Part shown: in pieces, positions 38 to 60,503 of the stretch | Position numbering within the stretch: position 1 is the first letter of the stretch | Layout: every line of letters starts with the position of its first letter | Source of the DNA: Bacteroidales bacterium | GTDB lineage: Bacteria; Bacteroidota; Bacteroidia; Bacteroidales; P3 | Length of the DNA stretch: 64,000 nt | Assembly: GCA_017480785.1 (NCBI GenBank) | Contig: JAFURZ010000003.1 | Span: 1-64,000, forward strand | Reading direction: 5' to 3' | Program-made: the position numbers and the translations under genes | Notes under the pieces: model-generated | Seen by the model: only the letters and a program-made list of their open reading frames with translations | The model's database searches: none | What the model was told of the DNA's origin: nothing

Positions 38-175
38 AAACGTGTTATCAACGTGTTAGGTCCGACTGCAGTCGGACCATCCTCGGAGTTGAGTCGGAGT
101 TGTTACGGAGTTGTTACGGAGGGGAGGCGGGGGTGCCCGGCGGATGGGTCGTGCGCGACCTAATCGCTCTCCCGA
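38..175. repeat. Dispersed palindromic element, family A copy 1
   Basis: The stretch holds a perfect 20-bp palindrome (59-78, centre CTGCAG). Three and a half units of CGGAGTTGWKW-type sequence follow, starting at 84, 95, 106 and 117, exactly 11 bp apart. A hairpin GGTCG-TGCG-CGACC lies at 147-160. A second copy in the same orientation lies at 31370-31503, with the same 88-bp spacing from palindrome to hairpin. It sits just upstream of the DUF4175 gene and probably forms part of its leader. Function is unknown. Confidence 0.85.
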
Positions 176-242
176 CGAGTTGGGGAAAAGTTGTCCGCTG
201 CCGTGCAATAATCGGCAGGGTTTGCCGTTATCATTTATTACG

Positions 243-3200
243 ATGGCCAGACCGGACGATATTCTGCAGGCGCTCGACGCCTTTATCAGGAAGTACTACA
301 AGAACCTCCTGCTGCGGGGCGTGCTGTGTGCCGTGGGCATCGTGGTGACGCTGTTTCTGGCGGTGGTGCTGCTGGAGCATTTCGGTTGGCTGTCGCCCGT
401 GGTCAGGGGGTTGCTCTTCTGGCTGGGTCTGGCGGCGGTGGCGGCGGTGACGGGCTGGCTGGTGGTGCGGCCGCTGCTGAAGATGCAGGGGCTGGGGCGC
501 CGCATCAGCCGTGCCGATGCCGCCCGCATCATCGGGCGACACTTCCCTGAGGTGAGCGACAAGCTGCTGAACCTGCTGCAGCTGATGGGAACGGAGAACG
601 GAGAACGGAGAGCGGAGAGTGGAGAACGGAGAACGGAGAGTGGAGAGCGGAGAGAGAACGGAGATTTATTGTTGGCGGCTATCGAGCAGAAGTCGGTGCG
701 GCTGAGGCCAGTGCCGATGCTCAACGCCATCAACCTGAAGGCCAACCGCAGATACCTGAAGTATGCTCTGCCGCCCTTGGCGGTGCTGGCGGCGCTGCTG
801 CTGACGGCGCCGCGGGTGGTCACCGAGCCGACGAAGCGCATAGCCCACTACCAGACGGTGTATGAGCGGCCGGCGCCGTTTGCCTTCCGCATCCTCAACG
901 AAGACCTGTCGGCCCAGCAGGGGGCTGACTATGAGCTGCGGGTGACCACCGAGGGCGAGGCGCAGCCTGCCGAGGTGAGCATCGACATTGAAGGGCGCCG
1001 CCACCGCATGCGGGCCGACCGCGGGGTGTTCTCCTTCAGCTTCAACAAGCTGCAGCGGTCGCAGACGTTCCGCCTGGAGGGCGGCGGGGTGACCTCGCCG
1101 GAGTACCGGCTGGAGGTGGTTCCCAACCCGCAGGTGGTGTCGTTCCGCATGGTGATGGTCTACCCTGCCTACACGGGCCGGCCGTCCGAGACGCTGGTGG
1201 GGCTCGGCGACGCCGCGGTGCCCGAGGGCACGGTGGTGCGCTGGCTGTTCCAGGCGCGCGACGCCGACACGCTGCGGTTTGGCGTGGAGAGCGGAGAGTG
1301 GAGGGTGGAGAACGTGCTGTTGCAGGACGGGCGCGCGGAGGTGAGCCGGCGGGTGATGGAGAATGCAGACTATGCCTTCAGCGTGAGCCGCGGTGCCGTG
1401 GGGTCGGACACGCTGCGCTATTCGCTGTCGGCCATCAAGGACGCGGTGCCGATGATAGCGGTCGAGGAGGTGGAGGATTCGCTGCATCCCGACCGGCGGC
1501 TGTTCCGTGGCCGCGTGAAGGATGATTACGGCTTCACCAGGCTCGTTTTCATCCACCGGACGACCAACGCCAAGGACACGACGCGAAACACGCTCAGCGA
1601 GGCCGAAATAGCCCTGACGCCGGGCGAGGCGGCCCAGGAGTTCTTCTTCTCGTTCAACACCGCCGGGCTGGCGCTGGCGCCGGGCGACGCGCTGGACTAC
1701 TGGTTCGAGGTGAGCGACAACGACGCCATACACGGCCCCAAGACGGCCCGCTCGCAGGTGTTCGAGGTGAAGATTCCGTCGGAGGAGGAGCTGGAGCAAC
1801 TGCTGGAGCAGCAGTCGGCCGACGTGAGGCAGAGCGCCGACGCCCAGATGGGCGAGCTGCAGCGCCTGCAGGAGAAAATCAACGAGATGATGAAGAAGCT
1901 GGTCGACAAGAAGGAACTCGACTGGCAGGACCGCAAGGACCTGGAGCAGATTCGCGACAAGCAGCGGCAGGTGAAGGAGATGATGCAGCAGATGCAGCGG
2001 CAGATAGAGGAGAACAACCGGCTGGAGCAGCGCTTCCGCGAGCAGAGCGAACAGCTGATGGAGAAGCAGCGCGAGCTGGACCGCCTGATGAACGAGGTGA
2101 TGGACGAGAAGATGAAGGAGACGATGGCCGAGATAGAGCGCATGATGCAGGAGCTTGACAAGAAGAAGGTGCAGCAGCAGCTGGAGCAGCTGAAGATGGA
2201 CAATGCCGAGTTGGAGCGGCAGCTGGACCAGAACATAGAGCTTATGAAGCGCCTGGAGATGGAGAAGCGGGTGGAGCAGACCATACAGAAGATGGACCGC
2301 CTGGCCGAGGAGCAGCGCGAGCTGGGCCGCGAGACCGAGCAGGCCAAAGGCAAGGAGAGCGAGCAATTGCAGCAGAAACAAAAAGAGCTGGCCGACCGCT
2401 TCCAACAGATGAAGCAGGATATCGACCAGCTCAAACAAGATTATAAAGAACTTGACCCCGGGACCGACTTCCGCGTGCCCACCGACCTCGAGCAGCAGGT
2501 GGAGCAGCACCAGCAGGGGGCCCAGCAGCAGATGCAACAGGGGAAAAACAAAAAGGCCTCGCAGTTGCAACTGGAGGCCGCTGATGATATGGAGAAGCTC
2601 AGCGAGGCGCTGGCTGAGGCGCAGCTCGACGCCGAGCAACAGGACCTGGCCGAGGATGCCGAGCAGGTGCGCCAACTGCTGAAGAACCTGGTGCATCTCT
2701 CGTTCAACCAGGAAGAGCTCATCGACGAGCTGAAGACTATCTACATCGCCGACCCGCGCTACCAGACGGTCATCACACGTCAGAACCGCGTGAAGGACGA
2801 CTTCCGCAATGTGGAGGATTCGCTCCACGCCATGGCCCGGCGCCAGCTGCAGGTGGCCTCGGCCATCACCAAGGAACTCGGTGCCGCCGACGCCAATATT
2901 GCCCGTTCGCTCAGCGGCTTGCTCGACATGAACCAAAGCTTCTACGGGAGCTATAGGAACACGCAGGCGGCCACGTCGATGCAGTACAGCATGACGTCGC
3001 TCAACAACCTGGCCCTCATCCTGGCCGAGAGCCTCGACCAGATGCAGAACCAGATGCGACAGAACGCACAGAAGAAGAAGAACGGGCAGTGCAAGAACCC
3101 CGGCAAGAGCAGCAGCATGTGCCCCAATCCAGGCAACGGCAAGCCGTCGCCCAAGTCGATGCGCCAGATGCAAGAGGAGCTGAACCGGCAGATGGAGGCC

Positions 3201-3698
3201 CTGCGCAAGCAGCTCGACAAGCAGGGCAACAAGCCCGGCGGGCGCCATCAGCTGGGGCAGGGACAGCAGATGAGCGAGGAGTTTGCCCGCATGGCGGCGC
3301 AGCAGGAGATGATACGCCGCATGATGCAGCAATACGGACAGGAGATGAAGTCGGCCAGTGGCGGCGACCCCAAGCTGGCGCGCGAAATCGACCAGATGAT
3401 GCGCCAGATGGAGCAGACCGAGACCGACCTCGTGAACCGCACCATCACCCGCCAGACCATCCAGCGTCAGCAGCAAATCCTCACCCGCCTCCTGGAACAC
3501 GAGCGGGCCGAGATGCAGCGCGAGAAGGAAGAGCGCCGTGAGAGCCATGAGGCCGGCGACCTCTACAGTCAGCCCTCGCCCGCCGAGTTGGAGCGCTACC
3601 GTCGACAGCTGCAGCCGTCGGCCGACCCGCTACGTACCCTCCCCCCTACCCTGCAGCCTTATTACCGTCAGAAAGTCAGCGACTTCTTCTATCGGTAG
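243..3698 (+). CDS. DUF4175 family large coiled-coil membrane protein
   Basis: A 1151-residue protein of unknown function, conserved in Bacteroidota. Two membrane helices lie near residues 22-72 and a third near 180-198. An Ig-like/beta-rich extracytoplasmic part follows up to about residue 510. A very long Gln/Glu/Lys/Met-rich coiled coil then runs from about 515 to 1100. The ATG at 243 (MARPDDIL) is preferred over an upstream in-frame ATG at 111, which would be translated from the family A repeat. Residues about 119-141 are an in-frame tract of GERRxES repeats encoded by a 7-bp tandem repeat, and a shorter tract of the same repeat lies at 1284-1315. Both look like insertions in an otherwise conserved gene. 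The family assignment is by overall architecture and is fairly sure; the role is unknown. Confidence 0.85.
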   Translation: MARPDDILQALDAFIRKYYKNLLLRGVLCAVGIVVTLFLAVVLLEHFGWLSPVVRGLLFWLGLAAVAAVTGWLVVRPLLKMQGLGRRISRADAARIIGRHFPEVSDKLLNLLQLMGTENGERRAESGERRTESGERRENGDLLLAAIEQKSVRLRPVPMLNAINLKANRRYLKYALPPLAVLAALLLTAPRVVTEPTKRIAHYQTVYERPAPFAFRILNEDLSAQQGADYELRVTTEGEAQPAEVSIDIEGRRHRMRADRGVFSFSFNKLQRSQTFRLEGGGVTSPEYRLEVVPNPQVVSFRMVMVYPAYTGRPSETLVGLGDAAVPEGTVVRWLFQARDADTLRFGVESGEWRVENVLLQDGRAEVSRRVMENADYAFSVSRGAVGSDTLRYSLSAIKDAVPMIAVEEVEDSLHPDRRLFRGRVKDDYGFTRLVFIHRTTNAKDTTRNTLSEAEIALTPGEAAQEFFFSFNTAGLALAPGDALDYWFEVSDNDAIHGPKTARSQVFEVKIPSEEELEQLLEQQSADVRQSADAQMGELQRLQEKINEMMKKLVDKKELDWQDRKDLEQIRDKQRQVKEMMQQMQRQIEENNRLEQRFREQSEQLMEKQRELDRLMNEVMDEKMKETMAEIERMMQELDKKKVQQQLEQLKMDNAELERQLDQNIELMKRLEMEKRVEQTIQKMDRLAEEQRELGRETEQAKGKESEQLQQKQKELADRFQQMKQDIDQLKQDYKELDPGTDFRVPTDLEQQVEQHQQGAQQQMQQGKNKKASQLQLEAADDMEKLSEALAEAQLDAEQQDLAEDAEQVRQLLKNLVHLSFNQEELIDELKTIYIADPRYQTVITRQNRVKDDFRNVEDSLHAMARRQLQVASAITKELGAADANIARSLSGLLDMNQSFYGSYRNTQAATSMQYSMTSLNNLALILAESLDQMQNQMRQNAQKKKNGQCKNPGKSSSMCPNPGNGKPSPKSMRQMQEELNRQMEALRKQLDKQGNKPGGRHQLGQGQQMSEEFARMAAQQEMIRRMMQQYGQEMKSASGGDPKLAREIDQMMRQMEQTETDLVNRTITRQTIQRQQQILTRLLEHERAEMQREKEERRESHEAGDLYSQPSPAELERYRRQLQPSADPLRTLPPTLQPYYRQKVSDFFYR
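588..664 (+). repeat. In-frame heptamer tandem repeat (GGAGARY) inside DUF4175 gene
   Basis: About ten units of a 7-bp motif (GGAGAAC, GGAGAGC, GGAGAGT) run head to tail. Three units make 21 bp, or seven codons, so the reading frame stays open and encodes a period-7 Gly-Glu-Arg-Arg-x-x-Ser peptide. The tract falls between two membrane-anchored segments. Confidence 0.9.
1284..1315 (+). repeat. Second short GGAGARY heptamer tract in DUF4175 gene
   Basis: About four units (GGAGAGC, GGAGAGT, GGAGGGT, GGAGAAC) of the same 7-bp repeat as at 588-664 recur about 650 bp downstream in the same gene. They encode VESGEWRVEN in frame. Confidence 0.75.
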
Positions 3699-3706
3699 AA
3701 AAAAGA

Positions 3707-3738
3707 TTTGCATAATTCGGATTTTTTGCGTATCTTTG
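3707..3738 (+). promoter_or_regulatory. Bacteroidota-type promoter for the anti-sigma-type ATPase
   Basis: TTTG at 3707-3710, a 20-bp spacer, then TATCTTTG at 3731-3738, 25 bp before the start codon. This matches the -33/-7 consensus of Bacteroidota housekeeping sigma factor promoters well. Confidence 0.75.
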
Positions 3739-3762
3739 TAAACTGATTTTACCCATGCCACT

Positions 3763-12298: not shown

Positions 12299-13342
12299 CT
12301 ACTTTAGATGTAGAAAAGCGTCGCGAACCTCATTGTCGGAGACGGTGACGTCAATCACGGCGGCGCCGGGCTCTTGCAGGAGGACACAGCGGAGCTCTCC
12401 GTCGGCGTTCTTCTTGTCCTGGTGCATCAAGGGCAGCATCTGCTCGATGTCTTTTAAATTGAAAGTTGAAAGTTGAAAGTTGAAAGTTGATAGTTGTTGC
12501 CTAAGCCACTGGGAGTATGTTCTGTAGACCTCCTCGCCGAGGCCCAGCTTCTTCACGGATAGGTACATGGCCACCCGCATGCCTATGCCGACGGCGATGC
12601 CGTGGGGCAGCTGCCGGTAGACCTCGATGGCGTGGCCGAAGGTGTGTCCGAAGTTCAGTATCTTCCTGATTCCATGGTCGTAGGGGTCGGCCTTCACCAC
12701 GCGGTTCTTTATCCTGCCCACAGCCACGATGTCCTGCCTGCCGGTCGGTCGCACCGTCGGGGCTTCCAGCAGCCTCATGTACAGCTCCGGGTCGGCCACG
12801 GCGGCGGTCTTCACCATCTCCACCGTGCCGTTGAGCAGCTCTGCCTCGGGCAGGGTATCCAGAAAGCGGGGCTCTATGACCGTCAGCGCGGCAGGGTAGA
12901 AGTGGCCGATGCTGTTCTTCACGCCGCCGAAGTCGATGCCCGTCTTGCCGCCGATGGCCGCGTCGGTCATGGCCAGCAGGGTGGTGGGGATGTTGATGTG
13001 GCGGATGCCGCGCTTGTAGCCTGCCGCCACGAAGCCTCCCAGGTCGCACACCGCCCCCCCGCCGAGGTTCACGATGACGGTCTGGCGGTCGGCGCCGCCC
13101 TCCAGCAGCGTCTGCCACACCTGTGCCGCCACCTCCAGGCTCTTGCATTCCTCGCCCACTGGCACCTCGATAAACTCGGCCTCCTGCAGCACCTCGATGC
13201 GCCCTATCAGCGTCGGCAGGCAGCAGTTGAAGGTGTTCTCGTCCACCACAATGGTGTAGCGTGCGTCAGCCCACGCCTCTTTCGCCAGCTCGCGCCCCAG
13301 CGCCGCCAGCCCCCCGTAGAGTGTTCTATTTTCCTTACTCAT
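12299..13342 (-). CDS. aroB: 3-dehydroquinate synthase
   Basis: A 347-residue NAD- and metal-dependent enzyme of the shikimate pathway that converts DAHP to 3-dehydroquinate. The NAD-binding segment is NLGGGAVCDLGGFVAAGYKRG (about residues 94-114). The segments DAAIGGKTGID and ILNFGHTFGHAIE carry the metal ligands. The start at 13342 (MSKENRTLYGG) is chosen because the longer frame runs through the neighbour's leader. Near residues 277-291 it carries a period-7 peptide, QLSTFNFQLSTFNL, encoded by a GTTGAAA heptamer array. This is an insertion relative to other AroB proteins, placed in the C-terminal helical domain. Confidence 0.93.
   Translation of the reverse strand: MSKENRTLYGGLAALGRELAKEAWADARYTIVVDENTFNCCLPTLIGRIEVLQEAEFIEVPVGEECKSLEVAAQVWQTLLEGGADRQTVIVNLGGGAVCDLGGFVAAGYKRGIRHINIPTTLLAMTDAAIGGKTGIDFGGVKNSIGHFYPAALTVIEPRFLDTLPEAELLNGTVEMVKTAAVADPELYMRLLEAPTVRPTGRQDIVAVGRIKNRVVKADPYDHGIRKILNFGHTFGHAIEVYRQLPHGIAVGIGMRVAMYLSVKKLGLGEEVYRTYSQWLRQQLSTFNFQLSTFNLKDIEQMLPLMHQDKKNADGELRCVLLQEPGAAVIDVTVSDNEVRDAFLHLK
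12456..12497 (-). repeat. In-frame GTTGAAA heptamer array inside aroB
   Basis: Six near-perfect tandem copies of a 7-bp unit (GTTGAAA on the plus strand). Read on the coding strand, three units give the seven-residue repeat STFNFQL. The same unit occurs inside the BadF-type kinase gene at 45399-45433. Confidence 0.9.
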
Positions 13343-23849: not shown

Positions 23850-23980
23850 GCCCCACTTCCTCTGCCATTTCTACGGTAGTATTACGGTTGTTCTTCGGCT
23901 GTTCTTCGGGAAAAAGCGTAATACTACCGTAATACTGTAAAAGAACAGTTAAGGAAAACCCAGAGGATGTGGGGGTTGGA
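23850..23980. repeat. Palindromic element, family B copy 1
   Basis: The left arm holds 11-bp units starting at 23873 (ACGGTAGTATT), 23884 and 23895. The right arm holds the reverse complement (AATACTACCGT, 23920-23930). Outer flanks CCCCACTTCCTCTG and GAGGATGTGGGGG (23963-23975) are shared with copy 2 at 47686-47818, where the unit array is more complete. This copy is partly decayed: two left units read ACGGTTGTTCT and TCGGCTGTTCT. It lies between cdd and the PpiD-like gene. Confidence 0.8.
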
Positions 23981-31369: not shown

Positions 31370-31503
31370 AAAACGCATTATCAACGACTTAGGTCCGACT
31401 GCAGTCGGACCATCCTCGGAGTTGTGTCGGAGTTGTTACGGAGATGTTACGGAGTTGAGGCAGGGGTGACCTGGAGATTGGTCGTGCGCGACCTATCTGC
31501 ACC
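31370..31503. repeat. Dispersed palindromic element, family A copy 2
   Basis: The same 20-bp palindrome as copy 1 lies at 31392-31411. Four CGGAGTTG-type units start at 31417, 31428, 31439 and 31450 (period exactly 11 bp). Hairpin GGTCG-TGCG-CGACC follows at 31480-31493. Distances between parts equal those of copy 1 at 38-175. The two copies are in direct orientation about 31.3 kb apart. Confidence 0.85.
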
Positions 31504-34284: not shown

Positions 34285-34392
34285 TGGCAGATGAGCATCT
34301 CGTTTCGGCGGGATGCTCATCTCGTATATAAATTGTTTCCCAACTCACAAGAACGAGATGAGCAACTGCCGAAAATGAGATGAGCAGGAGGC
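34285..34392. repeat. Palindromic element with 11-bp units (GAGATGAGCA family)
   Basis: The arms are TGCTCATCTCGT (34314-34325) and ACGAGATGAGCA (34353-34364), a perfect 12-bp inverted repeat. A further ATGAGATGAGC at 34375 lies exactly 22 bp after the first. Extra half-arms GATGAGCATCTCG (34290-34302) lie at the left. It sits between two convergent genes. Confidence 0.75.
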
Positions 34393-39088: not shown

Positions 39089-39164
39089 CTCATCTACTAC
39101 TCTTCGCCTACTCGAGTAGGGGATGGGTAGGCGATGAGTAAGGGATGAGTAGGAGTTGAGTAAG
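39089..39164. repeat. Palindromic element, family C copy 1 (CTACTC/GAGTAG)
   Basis: The centre is CCTACTCGAGTAGG (39107-39120). The left arm units CTCATCTACTA and CTCTTCGCCTA start at 39089 and 39100. The right arm units of GATGAGTARGS type start at 39122, 39133, 39144 and 39155, always 11 bp apart. A related copy lies at 60424-60503. It sits between the aminotransferase terminator and the convergent thioesterase terminator. Confidence 0.85.
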
Positions 39165-39288
39165 ACATGGTCTTGGGATGGCTTCTGTATCAGTGGGTTA
39201 CAAAAGCCGTTTTTTGGGGCTTTTTCCAGTTTTGAAGAGAAATTGTTTCGGTTTTGATTGGCGGGTCGAGGAGACGACAAAAACGGCC

Positions 39289-44723: not shown

Positions 44724-45575
44724 TCATTCTGGACGTGCGGCACTATGGTAGCTCCGGAGGCCGTCGATGGGGTCGGCCAGGATGGTGCCGATGGAAAGCC
44801 TTTGGTCGGCAAAGTAGCGACGCAGCGTAGGCTCGATGGCTTTGGCAAAACCACCCACTATGTTGAGCCAGCCTTCCTCGTGGCCTGTTTGCTGTTGGAG
44901 GGTCTCCACAGGCCCATGGTGCCAGTCGTAGAGCGCCGTCAGTATCACATGGTTGCAATAGTCATCTTCCTGGTGTGCAGCGGCGAAGGGTGCCAGCGAG
45001 GCCAGAAAGCGATTGGGGTGGGGACGGTGATAGACGGTGTCGATGAATTGGTCGTCCGACATGGGGTAAGCCTCATAGAATAAAGCTCTTACTTCCTCTG
45101 GCATGCGTCGGGTGAGGTAGTCGTTGAGCAGGATGCGACCCACATGGTTGGCCGACCCGTTGTCGCCCATCACGTAACCTGTGCTGACGGGTTGGCTGAC
45201 AATGCGTTGACCGTCGTAGTAGCAGATGTTGCTGCCGGTGCCCAGTATTCCGACCAGGCTCTCGCGGCGGCCGCTCACCGCACGGCAGGCCCCCAGCATG
45301 TCGGTGGCAACCGACAGGTCTTCAGGGCGTAATGCAGCCATGAGCAGCTTTTCCACTCGCTCGCGCTGACTGTCATTGCCGCAGCCGGCGCCGTAAAAAT
45401 AAAGTTGAAAGCTGAAAGTTGAAAGTTGAAAGTGAGTGCTCACCTGCCGGCAGGCGGCGAGGAACTGCTCGTCGGTGGTGAAATGGGGGTTGAGTCCTTC
45501 GGTAACCATCTTGTTACCAGTCTCTACCTCCATCCATGTGGTCTTGGTGCTCCCGCTGTCGGCGACAATAATCAT
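44724..45575 (-). CDS. BadF/BadG/BcrA/BcrD-type ATPase, N-acetylglucosamine kinase-like
   Basis: A 283-residue ASKHA-fold kinase. The phosphate-1 loop is IIVADSGSTKTTW (residues 2-14), and the phosphate-2 and adenosine regions are GILGTGSNICYYDG and IVGGFAKAIEP. Bacteroidota members of this size are usually called N-acetylglucosamine or glucosamine kinase-like; substrate is inferred only. Residues about 45-58 (VSTHFQLSTFSFQL) are an in-frame insertion made by GTTGAAA heptamer repeats, between the first strand region and the conserved YFYGAGCG segment. A 146-bp palindromic element lies directly upstream. Confidence 0.83.
   Translation of the reverse strand: MIIVADSGSTKTTWMEVETGNKMVTEGLNPHFTTDEQFLAACRQVSTHFQLSTFSFQLYFYGAGCGNDSQRERVEKLLMAALRPEDLSVATDMLGACRAVSGRRESLVGILGTGSNICYYDGQRIVSQPVSTGYVMGDNGSANHVGRILLNDYLTRRMPEEVRALFYEAYPMSDDQFIDTVYHRPHPNRFLASLAPFAAAHQEDDYCNHVILTALYDWHHGPVETLQQQTGHEEGWLNIVGGFAKAIEPTLRRYFADQRLSIGTILADPIDGLRSYHSAARPE
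45399..45433 (-). repeat. In-frame GTTGAAA heptamer array inside the BadF-type kinase gene
   Basis: About five tandem copies of the 7-bp unit GTTGAAA (one variant GCTGAAA). Read on the coding strand they give the peptide STHFQLSTFSFQL, nearly the same as in AroB (12456-12497). Confidence 0.9.
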
Positions 45576-47685: not shown

Positions 47686-47818
47686 AACCCCCTACTTCCT
47701 CTGGGATTTTTACGGTAGTATTACGCTAGTATTACGGTAGTATTACGCTTTTAAAGCGTAATACTACCGTAATACTACCGTAATACTACCGTAAAAATGG
47801 CGGAGGATGTGGGGGGCA
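47686..47818. repeat. Palindromic element, family B copy 2
   Basis: The left arm is three units ACGGTAGTATT, ACGCTAGTATT, ACGGTAGTATT starting at 47712, 47723 and 47734 (period 11). The centre is GC-TTTTAAA-GC. The right arm is AATACTACCGT three times, starting at 47760, 47771 and 47782. The outer flanks pair imperfectly (CCCCCTACTTCCTC with GGAGGATGTGGGGGG), giving a roughly 130-bp inverted repeat. It shares core and flanks with copy 1 (23850-23980). Confidence 0.9.
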
Positions 47819-48250: not shown

Positions 48251-51200
48251 ATGAAAAAGTATTTACAAATGATTGCCCTGGTGGCTGCGATGGCTTTCCC
48301 ATGGATGGCCGGTGCGCAGTGCACGGACGGCACGCCCTGCACGTTCACCATTGCGGGCGAAGACAGCTTCGGCGACGGATGGGAGGGAAGCCTGACCATC
48401 TATCGTAACAATGTGCAGTTGTCTACATTCACAGTCGATGAAGACGACAACACGCAGACCTTCACCGTGTGTCAGGGAGACTTGGTGCGCATCGACTGGT
48501 CGGGCAACGACCAGTACAACGAGAACACCTTCACCATCACCGGTGGCGACGGTACCGTGTACGTCAGTAATGCACACGGCTACACCTATGCACCGAGCGG
48601 CACGGTAGTGTCGTTCACGGCGTGCCCCACCTGCCTCTCGCCTTTCAACCTGCAGGCCGGCAGCATCATGAGCGACGGCGCCACCCTCAGCTGGTCGGAC
48701 ACCAGTAACAGCGGTGCCTCCTATACGCTCTACTACTGGAAGAGCGGTGCCGACACCACTGTGGTGAGCGGCATCCTCGACACTGCTTACACCCTGACGG
48801 GCCTTGACGCTGCTTCTGGCTACAACTTCTATGTGGTGGCTGTGTGTTCCAGCAGCGACTCGTCGTCTCCCACCGCCACCGCCACCTTCCGCACCGACTG
48901 TGAGGGCGGCTCGTGCAATATCACCGTCTACCGCACCGACTCCTACGACGACAGCTGGAACGGCTGCCTGATCAACCTCTACCAGAACGGCTCCCTGGTG
49001 GCTGCCATCGACTGCCCCAGCGGACAGAGCGGTTCTACTGCAACCTATCAGGTATGCGACAATGAGCCCATAGCCCTTGTATTTACCCGCGGTAGCTACC
49101 CCGGCGAGATGGGAGGCTACATTCAAGACGGTGGCGGTACTACACTATTCAGCATCAACAGCATGGGCAACTACTATACGGGCGACACATTGGCTTCCGT
49201 GGCTGACCCCTGCCCCTCGTGCCTGCCTCCGACGGCTCTGAGCATCGACACTGTCACGACCGACGAGATAGGTTTCTCGTGGAGCCCCCGCGGCAACGCC
49301 ACGCAGTTTGCCGTCTACCTGAATGACTCGCTCGTCGACGGCAACGTCAGCGACACCAGCTACTCCTTCTCCTACCTCGGCGCCAACACCCTCTACACCC
49401 TCGGCGTGCAGGCCGTCTGCTCGAGCGACGACAGTTCGACCATCGCCACCATCGGTGTCCGCACCTCGTGCGGCCCCACCGCGCTGCCCTTCTTTGTCGA
49501 CTTTGAGGATGCCGCCTACAACGGTGCCTGGTACCCCTGCTGGGACAGCACCATCGCCGCCGGCACCGACCCGTCGGTGAACAACGTGCGTAACCACACC
49601 TCGGGCGGCACCTATGGCATGTATCTGCAGGCCAAGAACAGCGAGCAGTACAACCTCGTGGTGGGTCCCGAGATGGACCTCACCAGCGGTGACCCCATCA
49701 ACGTCAGTTTCTGGGCCTACCTCAACGGCAGCAGCCGCTGGATTAAGGCCGGCGTCATCACCAACCCGCGCGACACCTCGACCTTCATCCCCTTGGTGAC
49801 CGTCGAGAACGCCAGCGGATGGAACGAATACGAATTCAACACTTCGACCCTCACCCTCACCGACAGCTACCGCATTGCCTGGCTGGCGTGCTACACCAGC
49901 AGCCCGTCGAGCTACGGCACCCAGATTGGCGAGATTGACGATATCAGCGTCAGCTTCTACAGCGGCTGCTCGCGTCCCGCCTCGGTGCAGGCTGCGGCCA
50001 ACATCACGGCCCACACCGCCGACCTGACATGGGAGAGCGTCAGCGGTGCCTCGGGCTACACCGTCTACTACGGCACCGTGAACAACTCCACCGATGCCAG
50101 CGTGCAGAGCGTCACCACCACCGACACCACCGTCACCCTCACCGGCCTCAACAGCGACACGCGCTACTATGCCTGGGTGGCCACCAACTGCGGCAGCACC
50201 ACCTCCGATGTGCGCCCCTTCAACTACTTCCAGACCCAGGTGTCCTGCCCCGCCGTCACTGGCTTGACGGTCGACACCACCTACTCTGACGGTGCCATCA
50301 TCAGCTGGCACGCCGGCGGCACGGAGACTGCTTGGGCCGTGGTGGTCGATAGCAACGACGTGGACGTGGTGACCGACAGCAGCTACACCGTCAGCGGCCT
50401 CGACGCCATGACCGGCCACACAGTGTATGTGCGCCCGATTTGCGACGCCGACGACACTGGTGCCGTGCGTAGCATCAACTTTGCCACTGCTTGCGACGCC
50501 TCTGTCTGCAACATGGTTGTGAATGCTACCGACAGCTACGGCGACGGCTGGAACGGCAACGCTATCGAATTCTATCAAGCCGGAATCTTGATGGGCTCCG
50601 CCACTATTTCCAGCGGCAACAGTGCCACTGTGTCCGTCGAGGTGTGTTCGTCGGCGGCCGTCGAGGTGCGCTTCAATAAAGGCAGCTATGCCGACGAGAT
50701 GGGTGGTACCGTCACCGATGGCGGTGGCAGCACCGTGTTCACCATCAGTGATATGAGCAACCGCAGTAGCGGCGATGTGCTGGCCACTGTGAGTGTTCCC
50801 TGCCCCGCCTGTCTGCCTCCCACCAACGTCTACCTGAGCGATACCACCGCTACGGGAGTCACCATCCACTGGACCGCCCAAGAGGGCCAGTCCGCATGGA
50901 TTGTGCGCGTTGACAGCATCTACATCAACGTCACCGACACCTTCTACACCGTCACTACCCTGGCCGAGCGCACGGCCCACACTGTCGGTGTGGCCACCGA
51001 CTGCTCGGGCGACACGTCCAGCTTTGCCAGCCTGCCCTTCATTACGGGTTGCACCGGCGGCGAATGCGAGATTACCGTTTCGACTACCAATGACTACCTC
51101 TCTTACGGCTCCTACTATAGCAGCTACAGCCCGCAGCTGAGTGTACGGCAGAACGGCGTCGAGTTGGCTTCGGTGCAGAGCACTACCGAAACCATCGGTG

Positions 51201-54200
51201 TGTGCAGCAACATGCCGCTGGCCGTTGTCCTTGTATCGGTAGGTTCTAACACACCCTCGGCCACCATTGTCAACGGCGGCGAGGAGGAGGTGTTCAATGG
51301 TACCACCAGCAGCTATAGCGCGGGTGACACGCTGGTCCTGATGGCCAATGCCTGTCCGAGTTGTCTGAAGCCTGCGGTGCAGATTGCTGCGGTCGACTCG
51401 ACCCAGTTGAGCTTTACCTGGACCGTGGAAGGCGGCACGACCTACCTGGTGTCGTTCGACAATGGCGCCTATGCCCCTGTCACCACCGGCATGTACACTG
51501 CTTATGGCCTTAATCCCAATACGCTCCACACCTTCGCCGTGAAGGCAGTCTGTTCGGTGGGTGACACCTCGAGCCCGCGCGTTGTCAACGTCAAGACCTC
51601 CTGCGGCGAGATGGCGATTCCCTATGTGGAAGGCTTTGAAGGCGACGCCGTGGGCAATGAGCCCTCGTGTTGGACGGTGGTGAGCGCCGGCGTCAACGGT
51701 TATCCTGCCGTCGACGAAAACGCTCATACCGGCAGCAACAGCCTGACCTTCGAGAGCAACGGCAGCAACACTGCCATGATTGCCAGTGGCCGCATTCCGC
51801 TGCCCGGCGATTCCATCAAGGTGAGCTTCTGGGCCTATACGTCCAATGGCTACGGCACCTTCGAGGCCGGCATGATGACCAATCCTTATGCCGACTCGAC
51901 GTTCATCAGCATGGTCACCGTCAACGCCAGTGATTACACCCTATACGAGTTCAACACCAATACGCTGGACCATGATTCGACCTACTACCTGGCTTTCCGC
52001 TATACTTACAGCAATGATTACTATAATGCCAACGTTGACGACATCAACATTACGCTCGACGAAGGCTGCATGACGCCCAGCAATGTCACTGCCACTCCCG
52101 ACAACGTCCATCCCAATGTCACCGTTGCATGGACCTGCGCCGGCGCGCTGAACAACTTTGTGGTGGAATACCGCATGGACGGCTCTGACACATGGAGTGC
52201 GCCGCAGTACACCACCTCCACCAGCAAGACGGTAAGCGGCCTGAGCTACTCGACCACATACGAGTTCCGTGTGGGTCAGGTGTGTGGCAACGACACGCTG
52301 TGGTCCACCACTGTCCTGGGCACCACGGTTTGCGGTGCGAGCGCATTGCCTTATGTGGAGAACTTCGTCAGCAGTACCGGCACCCTGCCTCCTTGCTGGG
52401 ACTATACGACTCCGAGTTACTTCCACTGGAACCGTTATACCAATCAAGCCGAGTCCAGCGGCGACGGCGAGATGATGGCTGGAAGCGGGTCGGCCGGCGA
52501 GGCTGCTATTCTGCCCACTTTCAATGTCCCCATAGTCAAGCTCCAGATTTCGTTCAACGCCAAGCTGGGCAACATCAGTGAAGGCGACGCCATCATGATG
52601 GGTGCCTATGACGAAAGCACGGGTACTGTGGATTGGGTTGACACGCTGACTATTGACGGACAGTGTCGCGAAAGCTTCGTACGTTTCACCTACAACTACC
52701 TTGACTACACTGGTTATGGTACACGTATTGCGATTGGACACAGCCACAATAATCCCAGTGACTGGGGTATGGCCATCGACAGCGTTGTGGTCATCGAACT
52801 GTCCGTCTGCAATCCCCCGCAGGACATCACGGTAAACAACAATATGTATCCCAACACTGCCGACGATGTCTACTTTACGTGGACCTACTCGCAGGCCGGC
52901 TATTCCGTTCCCACGCAGTGGCAGCTCTACATCGACACAATCACTTCGACCGACGTCATCGACAGCATCCCCGAGAGCCAGTTGATTACCGTCGATACCA
53001 ACTACTATATGCCTCCTTTCAACACGCTGGCCGAGGGTGCCCACTATCGCCTCTTTGTGCGTAGCATGTGCGGAACCGGCATATACAGCAACTGGGTGGA
53101 ACTGCAGAACGGTTTCGCTACCGACGAATACTGGATGAACAACACCGGCGTGGCCGATACCATCGTGGGATGTGACTTCATCATCTACGACAACGGTGGT
53201 CCGGTGGCTGGCTACCTTCACAACAGTAATTCTGCACTCGTAATCCAGGCTGGCGAGGCCGGTCGCGAGTTGCAGCTGCAGGGTGGCTTCTTCAGCCATG
53301 GTGCCGATGCCAACACCTTCACCGTGTACGACGGTGTGGGTACCAGCGGCACGGTCCTCTACAGCCGCACCAACACCAATATGACCGAGACCATCGACAG
53401 TGTGTTGGCCACTTCCACTACGGGTGCGATGACCATCACCTTCACCTCCGGCTACTACGCAGCCCTCGGCTACGAACTCTATATTCATTGTGTGGGAACT
53501 GCTTCGTGCGAGCGTCCGACCAACATCATGGTGGAGATGGTTGACAGTAACACGGCTTATGCCACTTGGAATGCGACGGGTGCCAGCCTCTACCGCGTGT
53601 ATCACCACGCCAGTGGCGACAGCGTGTGGAACATGAACCCCTCGTACACCAACAGCATCACACTCTCCAACCTGCCTGTCGACGTGATGTACGACCTCTA
53701 TGTCGTTGCATACTGCAGCGCTACCGACACATCGGCTCCCAGTATTATCCGCCACTTCAGCACTCATTGGGACGCCCCCTGCGAGGTTGTCACCAACCTG
53801 CAGGCAAGCGACGTCACGACGAACAGCGCAACCCTCAGCTGGACCAGCACCGGTACACAGTGGGAGTTGTCCGTCATCGGCAACGGCGCTCCTGTCGTCA
53901 CCACCAGCAATCCTTATTCTCTTACGGGTCTGACAGCCAACACCGAGTACAAGGTGGTTGTGCGCAATGTGTGTGATTCCGCCAATAACCGCTACTCGGA
54001 ATGGAGCGACACCCTCACCTTCACCACTCCGGATGCGATGTACACCATCACCGTTGTCTCGAACAATGAGAGCTGGGGCACTGTGACCGGTGGCGGCTCC
54101 TTCGCCAATGGCGCCACCACGGTCATCAAGGCCATTGCCAACAACGGCTACCGCTTCGTCAGCTGGCAGGACAACGACACCAATGCCGAGCGTACCATCA

Positions 54201-54493
54201 CCGTCACAGGTGACGCCACGTACACGGCCACGTTTGCATCGGTCAATGGTATCGACGACGTGACTGGCAGCAATGTGACCCTCTATCCGAACCCCGCCAG
54301 CGCTGCGGTCACAATCCGTGGCATCGAAGGCGAGAGCACGGTTACCGTGGTTGACCTCAACGGTCGCGAAGTGTACAGAGCCAATGCAAACAACAGTCTT
54401 ACGATAGACCTTGCCGGATTTGCCAAGGGCGCATACTTCGTCCGTATCACGGGCGAGCGCACTACGGTCATCCGCAAGCTCGTAGTGAAGTAA
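48251..54493 (+). CDS. Giant secreted adhesin with FN3, DSYGDGW-type modules and type IX sorting signal
   Basis: A 2080-residue protein with a signal peptide (residues 1-23, ending AGAQC). Four copies of a Cys-flanked module with a D-S-[FY]-G-D-G-W-x-G core begin near residues 30, 220, 750 and 935 (the last diverged). Each is followed by a CPxCLxPT linker and fibronectin III-like repeats. Three jelly-roll/cleaved-adhesin-like domains start near 411, 1120 and 1365 (LPFFVDFEDA, IPYVEGFEG, LPYVENFVS). A CUB-like region lies near 1640-1755 and an InlB B-type repeat near 1927-2000 (GTVTGGGSFANGATTVIKA). The tail (about 2007-2080) is a type IX sorting domain. It is probably a surface adhesin or binding protein. 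Confidence 0.88.
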   Translation: MKKYLQMIALVAAMAFPWMAGAQCTDGTPCTFTIAGEDSFGDGWEGSLTIYRNNVQLSTFTVDEDDNTQTFTVCQGDLVRIDWSGNDQYNENTFTITGGDGTVYVSNAHGYTYAPSGTVVSFTACPTCLSPFNLQAGSIMSDGATLSWSDTSNSGASYTLYYWKSGADTTVVSGILDTAYTLTGLDAASGYNFYVVAVCSSSDSSSPTATATFRTDCEGGSCNITVYRTDSYDDSWNGCLINLYQNGSLVAAIDCPSGQSGSTATYQVCDNEPIALVFTRGSYPGEMGGYIQDGGGTTLFSINSMGNYYTGDTLASVADPCPSCLPPTALSIDTVTTDEIGFSWSPRGNATQFAVYLNDSLVDGNVSDTSYSFSYLGANTLYTLGVQAVCSSDDSSTIATIGVRTSCGPTALPFFVDFEDAAYNGAWYPCWDSTIAAGTDPSVNNVRNHTSGGTYGMYLQAKNSEQYNLVVGPEMDLTSGDPINVSFWAYLNGSSRWIKAGVITNPRDTSTFIPLVTVENASGWNEYEFNTSTLTLTDSYRIAWLACYTSSPSSYGTQIGEIDDISVSFYSGCSRPASVQAAANITAHTADLTWESVSGASGYTVYYGTVNNSTDASVQSVTTTDTTVTLTGLNSDTRYYAWVATNCGSTTSDVRPFNYFQTQVSCPAVTGLTVDTTYSDGAIISWHAGGTETAWAVVVDSNDVDVVTDSSYTVSGLDAMTGHTVYVRPICDADDTGAVRSINFATACDASVCNMVVNATDSYGDGWNGNAIEFYQAGILMGSATISSGNSATVSVEVCSSAAVEVRFNKGSYADEMGGTVTDGGGSTVFTISDMSNRSSGDVLATVSVPCPACLPPTNVYLSDTTATGVTIHWTAQEGQSAWIVRVDSIYINVTDTFYTVTTLAERTAHTVGVATDCSGDTSSFASLPFITGCTGGECEITVSTTNDYLSYGSYYSSYSPQLSVRQNGVELASVQSTTETIGVCSNMPLAVVLVSVGSNTPSATIVNGGEEEVFNGTTSSYSAGDTLVLMANACPSCLKPAVQIAAVDSTQLSFTWTVEGGTTYLVSFDNGAYAPVTTGMYTAYGLNPNTLHTFAVKAVCSVGDTSSPRVVNVKTSCGEMAIPYVEGFEGDAVGNEPSCWTVVSAGVNGYPAVDENAHTGSNSLTFESNGSNTAMIASGRIPLPGDSIKVSFWAYTSNGYGTFEAGMMTNPYADSTFISMVTVNASDYTLYEFNTNTLDHDSTYYLAFRYTYSNDYYNANVDDINITLDEGCMTPSNVTATPDNVHPNVTVAWTCAGALNNFVVEYRMDGSDTWSAPQYTTSTSKTVSGLSYSTTYEFRVGQVCGNDTLWSTTVLGTTVCGASALPYVENFVSSTGTLPPCWDYTTPSYFHWNRYTNQAESSGDGEMMAGSGSAGEAAILPTFNVPIVKLQISFNAKLGNISEGDAIMMGAYDESTGTVDWVDTLTIDGQCRESFVRFTYNYLDYTGYGTRIAIGHSHNNPSDWGMAIDSVVVIELSVCNPPQDITVNNNMYPNTADDVYFTWTYSQAGYSVPTQWQLYIDTITSTDVIDSIPESQLITVDTNYYMPPFNTLAEGAHYRLFVRSMCGTGIYSNWVELQNGFATDEYWMNNTGVADTIVGCDFIIYDNGGPVAGYLHNSNSALVIQAGEAGRELQLQGGFFSHGADANTFTVYDGVGTSGTVLYSRTNTNMTETIDSVLATSTTGAMTITFTSGYYAALGYELYIHCVGTASCERPTNIMVEMVDSNTAYATWNATGASLYRVYHHASGDSVWNMNPSYTNSITLSNLPVDVMYDLYVVAYCSATDTSAPSIIRHFSTHWDAPCEVVTNLQASDVTTNSATLSWTSTGTQWELSVIGNGAPVVTTSNPYSLTGLTANTEYKVVVRNVCDSANNRYSEWSDTLTFTTPDAMYTITVVSNNESWGTVTGGGSFANGATTVIKAIANNGYRFVSWQDNDTNAERTITVTGDATYTATFASVNGIDDVTGSNVTLYPNPASAAVTIRGIEGESTVTVVDLNGREVYRANANNSLTIDLAGFAKGAYFVRITGERTTVIRKLVVK

Positions 54494-57375: not shown

Positions 57376-57396
57376 TCACCGAATTAAGCAAACATA

Positions 57397-57424
57397 AGAG
57401 GGCCTCTCGCGAGAGAGGCCCTCT
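57397..57424. terminator. Bidirectional terminator between two OmpA-family genes
   Basis: AGAGGGCCTCTC-GCGA-GAGAGGCCCTCT is a perfect 12-bp stem followed by TTTATTT. Confidence 0.9.
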
Positions 57425-57444
57425 TTATTTATATAGGTATGTGT

Positions 57445-58587
57445 CTATTCCGCCGTGACGCGATATTCCACCCGTCGGTTGTTGTGTCTGCCTTCGGGGG
57501 TGTCGTTTGTGTCGATGGGCATGCTTTTCCCGAAGCCTTTCCACCGCAAGCGCTGGCGGTCGATGCCATGCTCAATCAGGTAATCGGCCACGGCTTTGGC
57601 GCGCTCGTCCGAGAGGATACGGTTACGCTCCACGGTGCCTTGGTTATCGGTATGCCCGCGCAGTTCAATCTTCATGCTGGGATGTGCATTGAGCAGGTCA
57701 ATCAGCGAGTGCAGGTCGTTGTAGGACTGGGGCAGCAGCACGCTCTCGTCGGTGTTGAAGAGCACATTCCGAAGGGTGATGATGTCGCCCTTCGCGGGTG
57801 CGGGAACGGTGTCGACGGGTTGTGGTTCGGCATCGCAATCCAGGCACACGACCGACACATCATCGATATAGTAATAGGCTCCGGAGAGGACGGTGTTCTC
57901 GGCCCTTGTCTCAACCACGCCCGAGCGGTTGAACGAGTTGAAGTTGCCGATAGTCAGATACTTCTCACCGCCCTCGGCAATGAATTCCCCGCTGATTTCA
58001 TTCCATTGGTCCATGTAGATGAGGACATACCTGGAAGGCTGGGCCACCTGGGGGGTGTAGTAGGTGGCGACTACCTGTTTCTGCCCGTTGCCGAGGTCGG
58101 TTGTCTCGTTGTGCATCAAGATGTTCCAGGTAGTGTCGGCAATGCGGTCGACCGTAAACAAGGCTCCCAGGGTGGCGATGGCATTGGGTGACTTGTCGGC
58201 CAAGCTCGCCCAGAAGCTCACGCGGTAGCGGCGACCCTTCTTGAGCGGTTCCTTGAGTTCGGTCTGCAGGTATTCACGGTAGTTCTCCTTCGAGCAGTAG
58301 ATGCCACAGTAGGCCACGCCGCTGTGAGGCTCCTGCACGCCCATCTTGTTGCGCGGCGTGAGACACTCGCGACCGCCGCAGGCGTTGAAGTAGTCGCTGC
58401 TGCCCTTGGTGGGTTGCCACCAGGCATCTACGCCGCTCATAATTCCCAACGCGTCAATGCGTTGCGGGCAGGTGCTGTACTCCTCGAAGGAGCCGTTGAA
58501 TACCAAATTCTCTGTGTTCTGCGCCAGGGCGGAACACCAGTGCAGCATGGCCAGCAGGCTGAATAACGGAAGCCAGTGTTTCTTCAT
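57445..58587 (-). CDS. OmpA family protein with N-terminal jelly-roll-like domain
   Basis: A 380-residue protein with a signal peptide (residues 1-22, ending SALAQ). The N-terminal beta-sandwich-like domain begins NLVFNGSFEEYSTCPQRIDAL and continues with HSGVAYCGIYCSKENYREYLQTELKEPLKKGRRYRVSFWAS. Bacteroidota proteins combine this module with OmpA. The C-terminal OmpA domain (about 265-380) holds IELRGHTDNQGTVERNRILSDERAKAVADYLIEHG. It is likely outer-membrane or surface-bound through peptidoglycan contact. The stop overlaps the next downstream-strand unit by 4 bp (58584-58587 with the glycosyltransferase gene end). Confidence 0.88.
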   Translation of the reverse strand: MKKHWLPLFSLLAMLHWCSALAQNTENLVFNGSFEEYSTCPQRIDALGIMSGVDAWWQPTKGSSDYFNACGGRECLTPRNKMGVQEPHSGVAYCGIYCSKENYREYLQTELKEPLKKGRRYRVSFWASLADKSPNAIATLGALFTVDRIADTTWNILMHNETTDLGNGQKQVVATYYTPQVAQPSRYVLIYMDQWNEISGEFIAEGGEKYLTIGNFNSFNRSGVVETRAENTVLSGAYYYIDDVSVVCLDCDAEPQPVDTVPAPAKGDIITLRNVLFNTDESVLLPQSYNDLHSLIDLLNAHPSMKIELRGHTDNQGTVERNRILSDERAKAVADYLIEHGIDRQRLRWKGFGKSMPIDTNDTPEGRHNNRRVEYRVTAE

Positions 58588-59711
58588 CTTTTATCAATTG
58601 TATTTAACATACACACCCACAGCCTGTCGGCTGTCTTGTCCCAGCTGAACAGCTCGCGTTGCCGCCGCCCTTTCGCAATCAAGTCGTCGCGCAGCTGCTT
58701 ATCGGCCAACTGGCTGATAGCATGTGCTATATCGTCAGGACTGGAGGGGTCGATGTAGAGGGCTGCATCGCCACCCACTTCGGGCATCGAGGTGGTATGC
58801 GAGGCGATGACGGCTGTCTCGGCATGCATGGCTTCCAGAATGGGGATGCCAAAGCCTTCAAAGAAAGAGGGGTAGACCAGGGCCTCGGAGGCCGAAAGCA
58901 GGGCTGCCAGCTCGTCCGGCTCCACGTGGCCGGGCATGACGACATCCGCTTGGTGGCGCATGCCGTCGTAGGCCGCTGCCAGTTCGTCCTGCCACCACAC
59001 GCGGTTGCCCACCACAACCAGTTTCAAACCGCTTGTATCCATGTCTTTTACGCGGTCGAAGGCAAGCAACAGATTGGCCAGGTTCTTACGCTTGAGGATG
59101 GTGCTGATGAAAATCAGGTAGGGGCGGCCGTCGGTGTAGCGTTGACGGATGCGGCTTTTCTCCTCTTCCGTGTGGGGGCGGTAGCACTCGTGGGCACCGT
59201 CGTAGACCACATCAACCTTCATGGAATCAACTCCGTAGGTAGTACAGATATCTTTCTTTGAGTATTCCGATACGGTGGCGATGCGGGAGGCATGGCGCGC
59301 ATAGCGGGGGAAGAAGCGGGTCATGTAGTGTTGGTGAGACGGACGCAGGTTGTCGTTGAAGTGCTCGAAGTTGATGTCGTGGATGACGGCCACCGAGGGC
59401 ACGCGGCTGCGCAGTGGCAGGAAGCCATCGGGTGAGAGGAAGAGGTCAATCCTGTGCCGCCTAAGGAACATGGAAACAGACACTTCAAAGAAAAGCCACC
59501 AGAGGATGGGATGCCTGGCCGGAGGGGGCAGCACGACGGGAACGGCGTTGTCGGCAAAGATGAAATCGGGTGCCGGCTTTCGGTCGAAGAGCAGGTAGAA
59601 GGTGTGCTCGGGGTGGGCCGCGACGAGGCGTCGCGTGGTTTCGTAGGTGAACCATCCAATGCCGTCCATCTTGCCCTTCACGAGCAGGCGAGTGTTGATG
59701 GCAATGCGCAT
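58584..59711 (-). CDS. Glycosyltransferase family 4 (GT-B fold)
   Basis: A 375-residue retaining glycosyltransferase. The N-terminus is MRIAINTRLLVKGKMDGIGWFTYETTRRL, typical of GT4 enzymes. The acceptor-side motif FEHFNDNLRPSHQHYMTRFFPRYARHASRIATVSEYSK is present. The nucleotide-sugar site holds PSFFEGFGIPILEAMHAETAVIASHTTSMPEVGGDAALYIDP (EX7E motif, about residues 284-306). It follows purN by 1 bp on the same strand. The product sugar and acceptor are unknown; no other polysaccharide genes are adjacent. Confidence 0.9.
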   Translation of the reverse strand: MRIAINTRLLVKGKMDGIGWFTYETTRRLVAAHPEHTFYLLFDRKPAPDFIFADNAVPVVLPPPARHPILWWLFFEVSVSMFLRRHRIDLFLSPDGFLPLRSRVPSVAVIHDINFEHFNDNLRPSHQHYMTRFFPRYARHASRIATVSEYSKKDICTTYGVDSMKVDVVYDGAHECYRPHTEEEKSRIRQRYTDGRPYLIFISTILKRKNLANLLLAFDRVKDMDTSGLKLVVVGNRVWWQDELAAAYDGMRHQADVVMPGHVEPDELAALLSASEALVYPSFFEGFGIPILEAMHAETAVIASHTTSMPEVGGDAALYIDPSSPDDIAHAISQLADKQLRDDLIAKGRRQRELFSWDKTADRLWVCMLNTIDKR

Positions 59712-59712
59712 G

Positions 59713-60297
59713 CTATGAGCGTTTTATGGTCTCGTCAATCACGCGGGGGAAGTGCTCTTTCTCCAGCAGGTGTATTTTGGCCGCCAGGGAGTCGGGCGTG
59801 TCGTCGGGCGTGACGGTGCAACGCGCTTGGAACAAGGTCGTTCCGCGGTCGTAGTGCCGGTCGACGATGTGGATGGTGATGCCGCTCTCGCGCTCGCCGG
59901 CCGCCACGACGGCTTCGTGCACATGGTGCCCGTACATGCCCTTGCCGCCGTACTTGGGCAGCAGGGCGGGGTGTATGTTGATGATGCGGTCGGGGTAGGC
60001 GTCGAGCATGGCCTCGGGCACGAGCCACAGGAATCCGGCCAGGATGACCCAGTCGACCTGCTTCTGCCGCAGGTAGTCGAGCACGGCTCCGTTGTCGTAG
60101 AAGTCGGCCCGGCCGAAGTAGCGGGCCTCGATGCCGAGGTTTTCGGCGCGCCGTGCGATGTACGCGTCGCGCTTATTATATATGATACACGCGACCTCCA
60201 CGTCGTGGCGGCCGGCGAAGTATTCGCTGATTTGCTGTGCGTTGGTGCCGTTGCCGGAGCCCAGGATGGCCAGGCGGACAGGGGTGTTCATAGGCAT
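59713..60297 (-). CDS. purN: Phosphoribosylglycinamide formyltransferase
   Basis: A 194-residue enzyme of purine synthesis that transfers a formyl group from 10-formyltetrahydrofolate to GAR. Visible are AILGSGNGTNAQQI (phosphate loop), the catalytic Asn-His segment IINIHPALLPKYGGKGMYG (about residues 107-125), and GITIHIVDRHYDRGTTLFQ with the catalytic Asp. The start is placed at 60297 (or 60291), because a promoter lies only about 25 bp upstream. Its stop is followed after 1 bp by the start of the glycosyltransferase gene. Confidence 0.94.
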   Translation of the reverse strand: MPMNTPVRLAILGSGNGTNAQQISEYFAGRHDVEVACIIYNKRDAYIARRAENLGIEARYFGRADFYDNGAVLDYLRQKQVDWVILAGFLWLVPEAMLDAYPDRIINIHPALLPKYGGKGMYGHHVHEAVVAAGERESGITIHIVDRHYDRGTTLFQARCTVTPDDTPDSLAAKIHLLEKEHFPRVIDETIKRS

Positions 60298-60321
60298 TGT
60301 GTTTAGAGGTGTTTCGGAGTG

Positions 60322-60329
60322 CAAAGGTA
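60322..60329 (-). promoter_or_regulatory. -7 promoter element of purN
   Basis: Minus-strand TACCTTTG, 25 bp upstream of the start at 60297. It excludes the longer reading frame that begins at 60432. Confidence 0.6.
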
Positions 60330-60423
60330 CGCAAAAAAAACGAAATAGCGGCAACGGAATGAAAAAATACGTCAAAAAGCCCCTTCGCAGCTGCCTCAGC
60401 CACAGGCCGTAGCAAGACTTCCT

Positions 60424-60503
60424 CCTACTCATCGCCTACTCTCACATTACTCTTCGCCTTGACAAAATTTACTTGAGTAGGCAATAAGTAGGCGGGAAGT
60501 ACG
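60424..60503. repeat. Palindromic element, family C copy 2 (CTACTC/GAGTAG)
   Basis: Left arm units CCTACTCATCG, CCTACTCTCAC and ATTACTCTTCG start at 60424, 60435 and 60446 (period 11). The centre is AT-rich. Right arm units GAGTAGGCAAT and AAGTAGGCGGG start near 60475 and 60486. The units match copy 1 at 39089-39164. It lies directly upstream of the second DUF6266 gene. Confidence 0.83.

Follow-up and report, generated by a model that had tools for sequence, protein, structure and literature searches.

Palindromic intergenic elements with arms of 11-bp units in register about the dyad: a candidate superfamily in a genus of gut Bacteroidales

The stretch of DNA analysed here (the window, 64,000 nucleotides) is bases 1-64000 of contig C12 (JAFURZ010000003.1) of a Bacteroidales bacterium, the assembly of which (GCA_017480785.1) comprises 2.25 Mb in 19 contigs and is 92 % complete. 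An earlier note on this DNA had pointed to several palindrome families with a common internal period of 11 bp and had taken them to be unrelated. We found that arrays of this kind with a clear dyad keep one 11-bp register about that dyad, together with a degenerate core. We propose that these dyad-bearing elements are one superfamily of palindromes resembling miniature inverted-repeat transposable elements (MITEs), with helically phased protein-binding combs as arms, an interpretation that may well be right and may equally well be wrong. Short palindromic intergenic elements, of roughly 100-180 bp by our estimate, would form the superfamily, and each arm would be a comb of putative binding sites, its short core recurring at 11-bp steps away from the dyad and reading CG in roughly half of the arms. 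A protein may occupy successive units cooperatively in both arms. Outside the core the unit would drift, and units would be gained or lost in 11-bp steps; sequences would thus come to differ among families and among species, with the period, the register and the dyad preserved. The elements would spread in trans, the comb probably being the feature by which a protein that moves or maintains them recognises them.

The evidence that carries this proposal comes from aligning arrays by their dyad. A wider set of 133 arrays (17/22 or better matches at lag 11) supplied 26 distinct dyad-bearing elements. Two of these (L066 and L157) were dropped because their dyad belongs to a neighbouring palindrome, and the remaining 24, from nine genomes, were compared with no free alignment parameters. 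CG starts at distances of 5 (0.42 of the 48 arms), 16 (0.50), 27 (0.46), 38 (0.46) and 49 bp (0.35) from the dyad, and at any other position up to 52 bp from the dyad in at most 0.15. Total information was 4.11 bits, compared with 1.46 ± 0.17 under random rotation (maximum 2.33 in 5000). Taking one element per genome gave 6.56 bits against 2.80 ± 0.50, with none of 200 draws equalled by its 200 rotations, and the 10 elements from genomes other than G000 gave 6.65 bits against 2.61 ± 0.46 (maximum 4.86 in 2000). A coarser grouping test (p 0.0008) had only four groups and was not relied on. The consensus outward unit is approximately [C/A]G-n-A-G-A-A-[C/G]-n-n-n, and the innermost cores of the two arms lie about 10-11 bp apart across the dyad, the spacing being continuous. 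Distinct dyads without lag-11 repetition nearby (46 in the source genome, 142 in congeners and 19 in other members of the order) showed no comb, with one exception in the source genome and one among congeners. The shared register was observed in the dyad-bearing class only. The unit sequences do differ, as the earlier note had said, but the families are not all unrelated, since dyad-bearing elements share register and degenerate core and hybrids between families exist.

DNA in living cells makes one turn in about 11 bp. Cores placed every 11 bp from the dyad would look toward roughly the same side of the helix in both arms, and a core that recurs once per turn, on roughly one face and continuously across the dyad, fits a cooperative binder.

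Conservation of the core against the remainder of the unit was seen in the CGGAG family. Its elements have a central GTCCGACTGCAGTCGGAC from which units run outward in both arms. One side is usually flanked by an outer palindrome, TCGnnnnCGA, beginning 45, 56, 68, 79 or 80 bases from the dyad, that is, at positions about whole units apart. Loci of this family (L001-L030) were retrieved with its right-arm pattern, which biases right-arm conservation, and left arms were therefore relied on; bases 1-9 from the dyad were also set by the search pattern, so unit 1 was excluded. Across units 2-4 of 15 left arms, 4 of 90 cells differed from the consensus where the column holds CG, compared with 146 of 405 in the other columns (Fisher p 5e-11). 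CG also persisted in 24 of 27 slots of nine left arms that share less than 80 % identity with one another, against an average of 0.11 of 9 at the remaining positions. Contigs C12 and C18 open with the same CGGAG element (window 1-130; L027), a repeat at which the assembly breaks.

This last comparison of diverged arms bears on the possibility that the elements are neutral minisatellites carried on mobile elements, in which slippage homogenises the units of an ancestral 11-bp array and keeps its period with no protein involved. Drift alone does not predict CG in 24 of 27 slots of such diverged arms. Descent from a single ancestor would also yield a shared register, though, and arm mismatches are evenly spread over the phases of the unit. 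Hybrid arrays exist, as do arms that differ by whole units (below), and BrickBuilt of Porphyromonas gingivalis is a minisatellite inside a MITE (PMC4596501). We consider this explanation quite unlikely overall.

Seven sites in the window had been reported in the earlier note as having units exactly 11 bp apart. The best lag-11 match at each was compared with 2000 local Markov-1 sequences, and the spacing was upheld at five, none of them equalled by any of the 2000: 84-117 and 31417-31450 (19/22 each), 23873-23930 (17/22), 39089-39155 (18/22, with 19/22 at lag 22) and 47712-47782 (22/22). The match at 60424-60486 was weak (14/22, equalled by 12 of 2000). At 34353-34375 it was 7/15 (equalled by 396 of 2000), and the best lag there was 22 (11/15), making this a repeat pair and not an 11-bp array. 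The features are listed below, with a strand where one applies and with period-11 calls from Tandem Repeats Finder (TRF), which also called 23885-23909 and 39114-39162.

38-59: left arm of the first CGGAG-type element, made up of a pair of 11-bp blocks with differing units (AAACGTGTTAT, CAACGTGTTAG), recognised from sequence and from their 11-bp register with the dyad
60-77: its central palindrome GTCCGACTGCAGTCGGAC, with the dyad at 68/69
81-130, plus strand: its right-arm 11-bp array of CGGAG-type units (TRF period 11 at 84-121)
147-160: its outer palindrome GGTCGTGCGCGACC, the TCG beginning 80 bases past the dyad
23852-23971: hybrid element, CGGTAGTATTA and CGGTTGTTCTT type units sharing one 11-bp register, inverted arm rightward
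31393-31410: central palindrome of the second CGGAG-type element
31414-31461, plus strand: its right-arm 11-bp array of CGGAG-type units (TRF period 11 at 31417-31457)
31480-31493: its outer palindrome GGTCGTGCGCGACC
34353-34386: two repeats spaced by 22 bp, left out of the count of elements
39089-39166: GAGTAGG-type element with its dyad at 39113/39114; the left arm reaches 39113 and the right array covers 39114-39166
47702-47804: CGGTAGTATTA element, three units per arm flanking ACGCTTTTAAAGCGT (TRF period 11 at 47710-47749 and 47757-47794)
60424-60503: degenerate CTACTC/GAGTAGG-type element

The lag-11 excess in intergenic DNA that the earlier note had proposed as its check was found in the source genome and in its congeners. 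Autocorrelation of 38.2 kb of intergenic segments, drawn from the window and 20 evenly spaced 20-kb stretches (464 kb in all), peaked at lag 11 with a match fraction of 0.299, followed by 0.289 at lag 22 and 0.283 at lag 33, whereas coding DNA gave 0.249 at lag 11 and no peak. Lag 6 (0.295) and other multiples of 3 were elevated in the intergenic set too, as in coding DNA, so that the raw lag-11 peak is not an isolated one. Local strong matches (18/22 or more) gave a clearer picture and numbered 19 at lag 11, 10 at lag 22, nine at lag 7, six at lag 21, five at lag 14 and at most two at any other lag. Strong arrays, defined by at least 18/22 matches at a given lag, numbered 0, 32, 5 and 0 at lags 10, 11, 12 and 13 in the source genome (464 kb, whole stretches) and 3, 11, 4 and 0 in congeners (348 kb). 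With finer splitting and three further source-genome stretches, which were chosen for nearness to Y1 transposase genes, the count at lag 11 was 49, against 0, 5 and 0 at lags 10, 12 and 13. A 696-kb congener set, part of it chosen near Y1 or SurA-like genes and overlapping the 348-kb set, gave 35 against 3, 6 and 0. Outside the genus, 20 stretches from other members of the order (260 kb) held no lag-11 array in readable sequence, the four hits obtained there being fully masked contigs, and 50 kb of Escherichia coli K-12 held no strong array at lags 5-23.

Strong arrays at lag 7 rivalled those at lag 11 in number, with 37 in the source genome and 22 in congeners. By our own codon-model gene call, which determined the genic or intergenic status of the source-genome arrays, 18 of the 37 source-genome lag-7 arrays were genic, compared with 2 of the 32 lag-11 arrays. 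Tandem 7-bp arrays lie in the window at 589-664, 1284-1311, 12459-12496 and 45401-45433, and 23 were counted in 80 kb of genome G002; phase variation or a heptad-binding protein would be our guesses as to their meaning.

Inverted arms, which the earlier note had also described, proved frequent, with an inverted-repeat score of at least 20 in 26 of 43 arrays compared with 32 of 300 random intergenic spots. The CGGTAGTATTA element spans about 100 bp and is almost perfectly palindromic; most of the 20 aligned copies carry three units in each arm. Unit variants, judged by eye in these copies, are mostly mirrored between the arms, the window copy excepted, and in three of the 20 one arm is short by one or two whole units. 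Its pattern matched the source genome 90 times forward and 90 times in reverse, with 27 exact intact centres, and had no match in 24 congeners and 16 other members of the order. As in a MITE, it is a short noncoding repeat with many near-identical dispersed copies, and the surroundings differ among the 20 aligned. The ends of these copies are of three types (GATGT, GAA and GTG). The 15 of 20 that could be typed at both ends never had the same type twice, and 13 had exactly one GATGT end, as if the palindrome had two different ends. Judged by eye, many copies also have pyrimidine-rich sequence on their left flank and purine-rich sequence on their right (e.g. L034:12774 and L036:7809).

Hybrid elements combine families in register, as at window position 23872 and in L047 and L048. 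Five congeners lack the insertion at the site orthologous to the 23852-23971 element; this empty site, of the kind expected of a MITE, was found at one site only. Several congeners have repeated units of their own (e.g. G023, G004, G010, G064 and G044). A pattern scan of named genomes returned matches mostly in rumen Bacteroidales assemblies and in one labelled Chloroflexi, and no matches were found in viral contigs (two exact patterns) or plasmids (one element). The Chloroflexi-labelled sequence, L191 (DAHXON010000125.1), a metagenome-assembled genome, has a TTCGGTTGTTCTTCGG array, and its bin is possibly mislabelled or contaminated.

The placement of the arrays is relevant to two further explanations. 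Thirty of the 32 strong lag-11 arrays of the source genome are intergenic: 11 lie between divergent genes, 10 between tandem genes and seven between convergent genes, and two are at stretch ends. RNA hairpins, either terminators or mRNA-stabilising stems with arms that are repetitive by chance, would account for the perfect or near-perfect inverted arms seen in several families and for the seven convergent arrays among 28 classifiable ones, which exceed the convergent share of intergenic bases (6.0 of 54.8 kb). Yet 11 of the same 28 lie between divergent genes, and of 166 arm mismatches 24 are G-T, 25 A-C and 117 neither, so RNA pairing including wobble is not what is kept. Palindromes without lag-11 repetition also lack the comb, and Rfam recognised one tRNA only in the window. 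We therefore regard RNA hairpins as very unlikely, and the ordinary terminators that the earlier note had named as a refuting outcome find no wobble signature in the arms to support them.

A second explanation gives the comb a role in the host, whereby an architectural or regulatory protein folds the chromosome or sets expression at the edges of transcription units. The intergenic position of the arrays agrees with such a role, as does the slot upstream of a conserved 156-aa gene, where, among 15 loci examined, arrays of differing units occur in G064, G010, G062 and G014. The promoter-like word TATCTTTGC reads outward from arrays 12 times and inward once. A first count of flanking motifs had used a whole-genome background and was repeated against other noncoding DNA. 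There TATCTTTG reached 0.44 per kb, compared with 0.58 per kb beside arrays, a slight enrichment only, and the promoter link is thus mostly that of any intergenic DNA. The small neighbouring genes have no common function, and the main families appear to be recent and locally amplified. A host role is, in our judgement, rather unlikely, though it is the leading alternative to the main proposal. Separately, the near-palindromic GCTGAWWWTCAGC, with two mismatches allowed, occurred 19 times in 32.6 kb beside arrays and 30 times in 223 kb of other noncoding DNA, a fourfold higher density; examples lie at L250:5411, L251:11799 and L043:13620 and to the left of the CGGAG elements.

Dispersed intergenic palindromes also bring to mind repetitive extragenic palindromes (REPs) and bacterial interspersed mosaic elements (BIMEs), moved by REP-associated tyrosine transposases (RAYTs) of the Y1 type. 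Y1_Tnp genes occur in 40 of 59 genomes of the genus, with up to seven matches per genome and three in the source genome, one of the latter lying about 0.9 kb from an 11-bp array (L151). Only three of 20 Y1 loci held lag-11 arrays, however, which is about the general density, and ten genomes without a detected Y1 gene had 20 arrays in 493 kb compared with 20 in 520 kb in ten with one (two of the genomes compared being only 88 % complete). The palindromes listed beside the Y1 genes of L167 and L170 are of other kinds. RAYT-driven movement is therefore extremely unlikely, and the slippage or templating by a transposase put forward in the earlier note loses its RAYT form, arrays being equally dense with and without Y1 genes. 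Y1 loci include L151, L153, L167 and L170, of which L167 and L170 are adjoined by the clusters of other palindromes.

Several observations weigh against a superfamily of protein-binding combs. A clear dyad was seen by eye in only 44 of the 133 arrays, reducing to the 26 distinct elements above, and 14 of the 24 elements used come from the single genome G000. About half of the arms lack CG in a given slot and have another pair there. The earlier note had suggested clustering the units. An alignment of 37 unit clusters with phase and strand left free reached 4.04 bits, no more than chance allows (3.86 ± 0.13, maximum 4.30 of 40), and revealed no common core; the shared register emerged once the dyad was fixed, which removes the freedom of phase and strand, and the signal appears only then. 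Mismatches between the arms of the 24 elements were not rarer at core phases (30 of 162) than at others (136 of 656), and core conservation is therefore shown only in the CGGAG family. Neither HTH_17 (at E 0.001) nor RHH_1 had a match in the 92 %-complete source genome, which speaks against the BldC/excisionase-type and ribbon-helix-helix (RHH) binders that we had considered as candidates. Among 77 neighbouring genes, none longer than 260 aa and all lying within 700 bp of an array, no family occurred in more than three, among the matches listed, and no RHH family was among those listed (the first 25 of 66 families), although a divergent ParR could be missed. No transposase was tied to the elements, and neither an autonomous partner nor a target-site duplication was shown. 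The suggestion in the earlier note of a protein that binds one face of DNA cooperatively thus agrees with the phase pattern, in its register and CG slots, while no binder was found; the source genome has two Trans_reg_C matches, for which no link to the elements was shown.

If the protein-binding comb is nevertheless correct, it would in our view mainly help the elements to spread, since those families that are best studied are confined to one species and lie beside unrelated genes. An unlikely extension is that a genus-specific DNA-coating protein reads little beyond a CG step per turn on one face, the elements being a positional code for a DNA filament. Such a code would allow elements to change most of their sequence and stay readable, in the service of their own spread or of chromosome folding. 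Most repeat families are defined by sequence; what is conserved here is spacing and register about a dyad, and since the greater part of the sequence may be replaced from one species to another, elements of this kind would be missed by alignment-based annotation. The unit families would form a natural series for the co-evolution of protein and site, and the prediction is a cooperative binder with an 11-bp step.

As to other content of the window, Pfam matches were to Por_Secre_tail, DUF6266 and AAA_14/DUF4143, which point to Bacteroidota, and a predicted 2080-aa protein with fibronectin type III domains and Por_Secre_tail is encoded at 48251-54493. Bac_DnaA (PF00308) had no match in the 92 %-complete source assembly, probably because a piece of the assembly is missing.

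No description of such elements was found in titles and abstracts of the open-licence literature, among the matches listed. Regulators of the OmpR/PhoB type share the figure of an 11-bp repeat and usually act on a repeat pair at the promoters they regulate. They resemble the present case in their tandem, head-to-tail binding to direct repeats (PMC3348028). The earlier note knew of no described class with the property seen here, which does not hold for its parts, as direct repeats about one helical turn apart are bound by Apl, BldC-type proteins and ParR of plasmid R1; in the portions of the sources available, however, none of these arrays is described as a dispersed palindromic repeat superfamily. 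Apl (PMC7498355), BldC (PMC5859096) and RdfS (PMC11963761) bind cooperatively to direct repeats about one turn apart in variable number, BldC occupying 9-bp repeats at one helical turn per molecule (PMC5859096). Such repeats, spaced by one helical turn and varying in number, were found here as well, but the sites of these proteins are few and lie at attachment sites or promoters, not in dispersed palindromes, and the HTH_17 match expected of a MerR/excisionase-type protein was absent from the source genome. At parC, a minimum of two 11-bp repeats is necessary for ParR of plasmid R1, and repeats vary among systems (PMC9426499); parC differs in being a single plasmid site beside its own genes (PMC9426499), and RHH_1 was likewise absent here. 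REP/BIME elements are small, dispersed, high-copy intergenic palindromes, with no 11-bp comb in the available text (PMC3733652), and the elements here showed no dependence on Y1 genes. The TAACTGA heptamer repeats occur between genes as numerous groups of short direct repeats, Bacteroidetes being among the carriers, and differ in having one fixed 7-mer; they are closer to the 7-bp arrays described above (PMC4679880). The nearest known element within the order is BrickBuilt, a short intergenic element of limited range in Bacteroidales with 19 copies, an internal tandem repeat of varying number and, as here, a unit with conserved and non-conserved sites (PMC4596501). It differs in its 23-nt unit, its non-repetitive leader and tail and its IS5-type terminal repeats, and as excerpted it is one family without an 11-bp dyad-registered comb, compared with the many families per genome found here (PMC4596501). 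In sum, both kinds of component, the MITE-like repeat and the helically phased binding array, are known, and it is their combination, with register kept and most of the sequence lost, that seems new.

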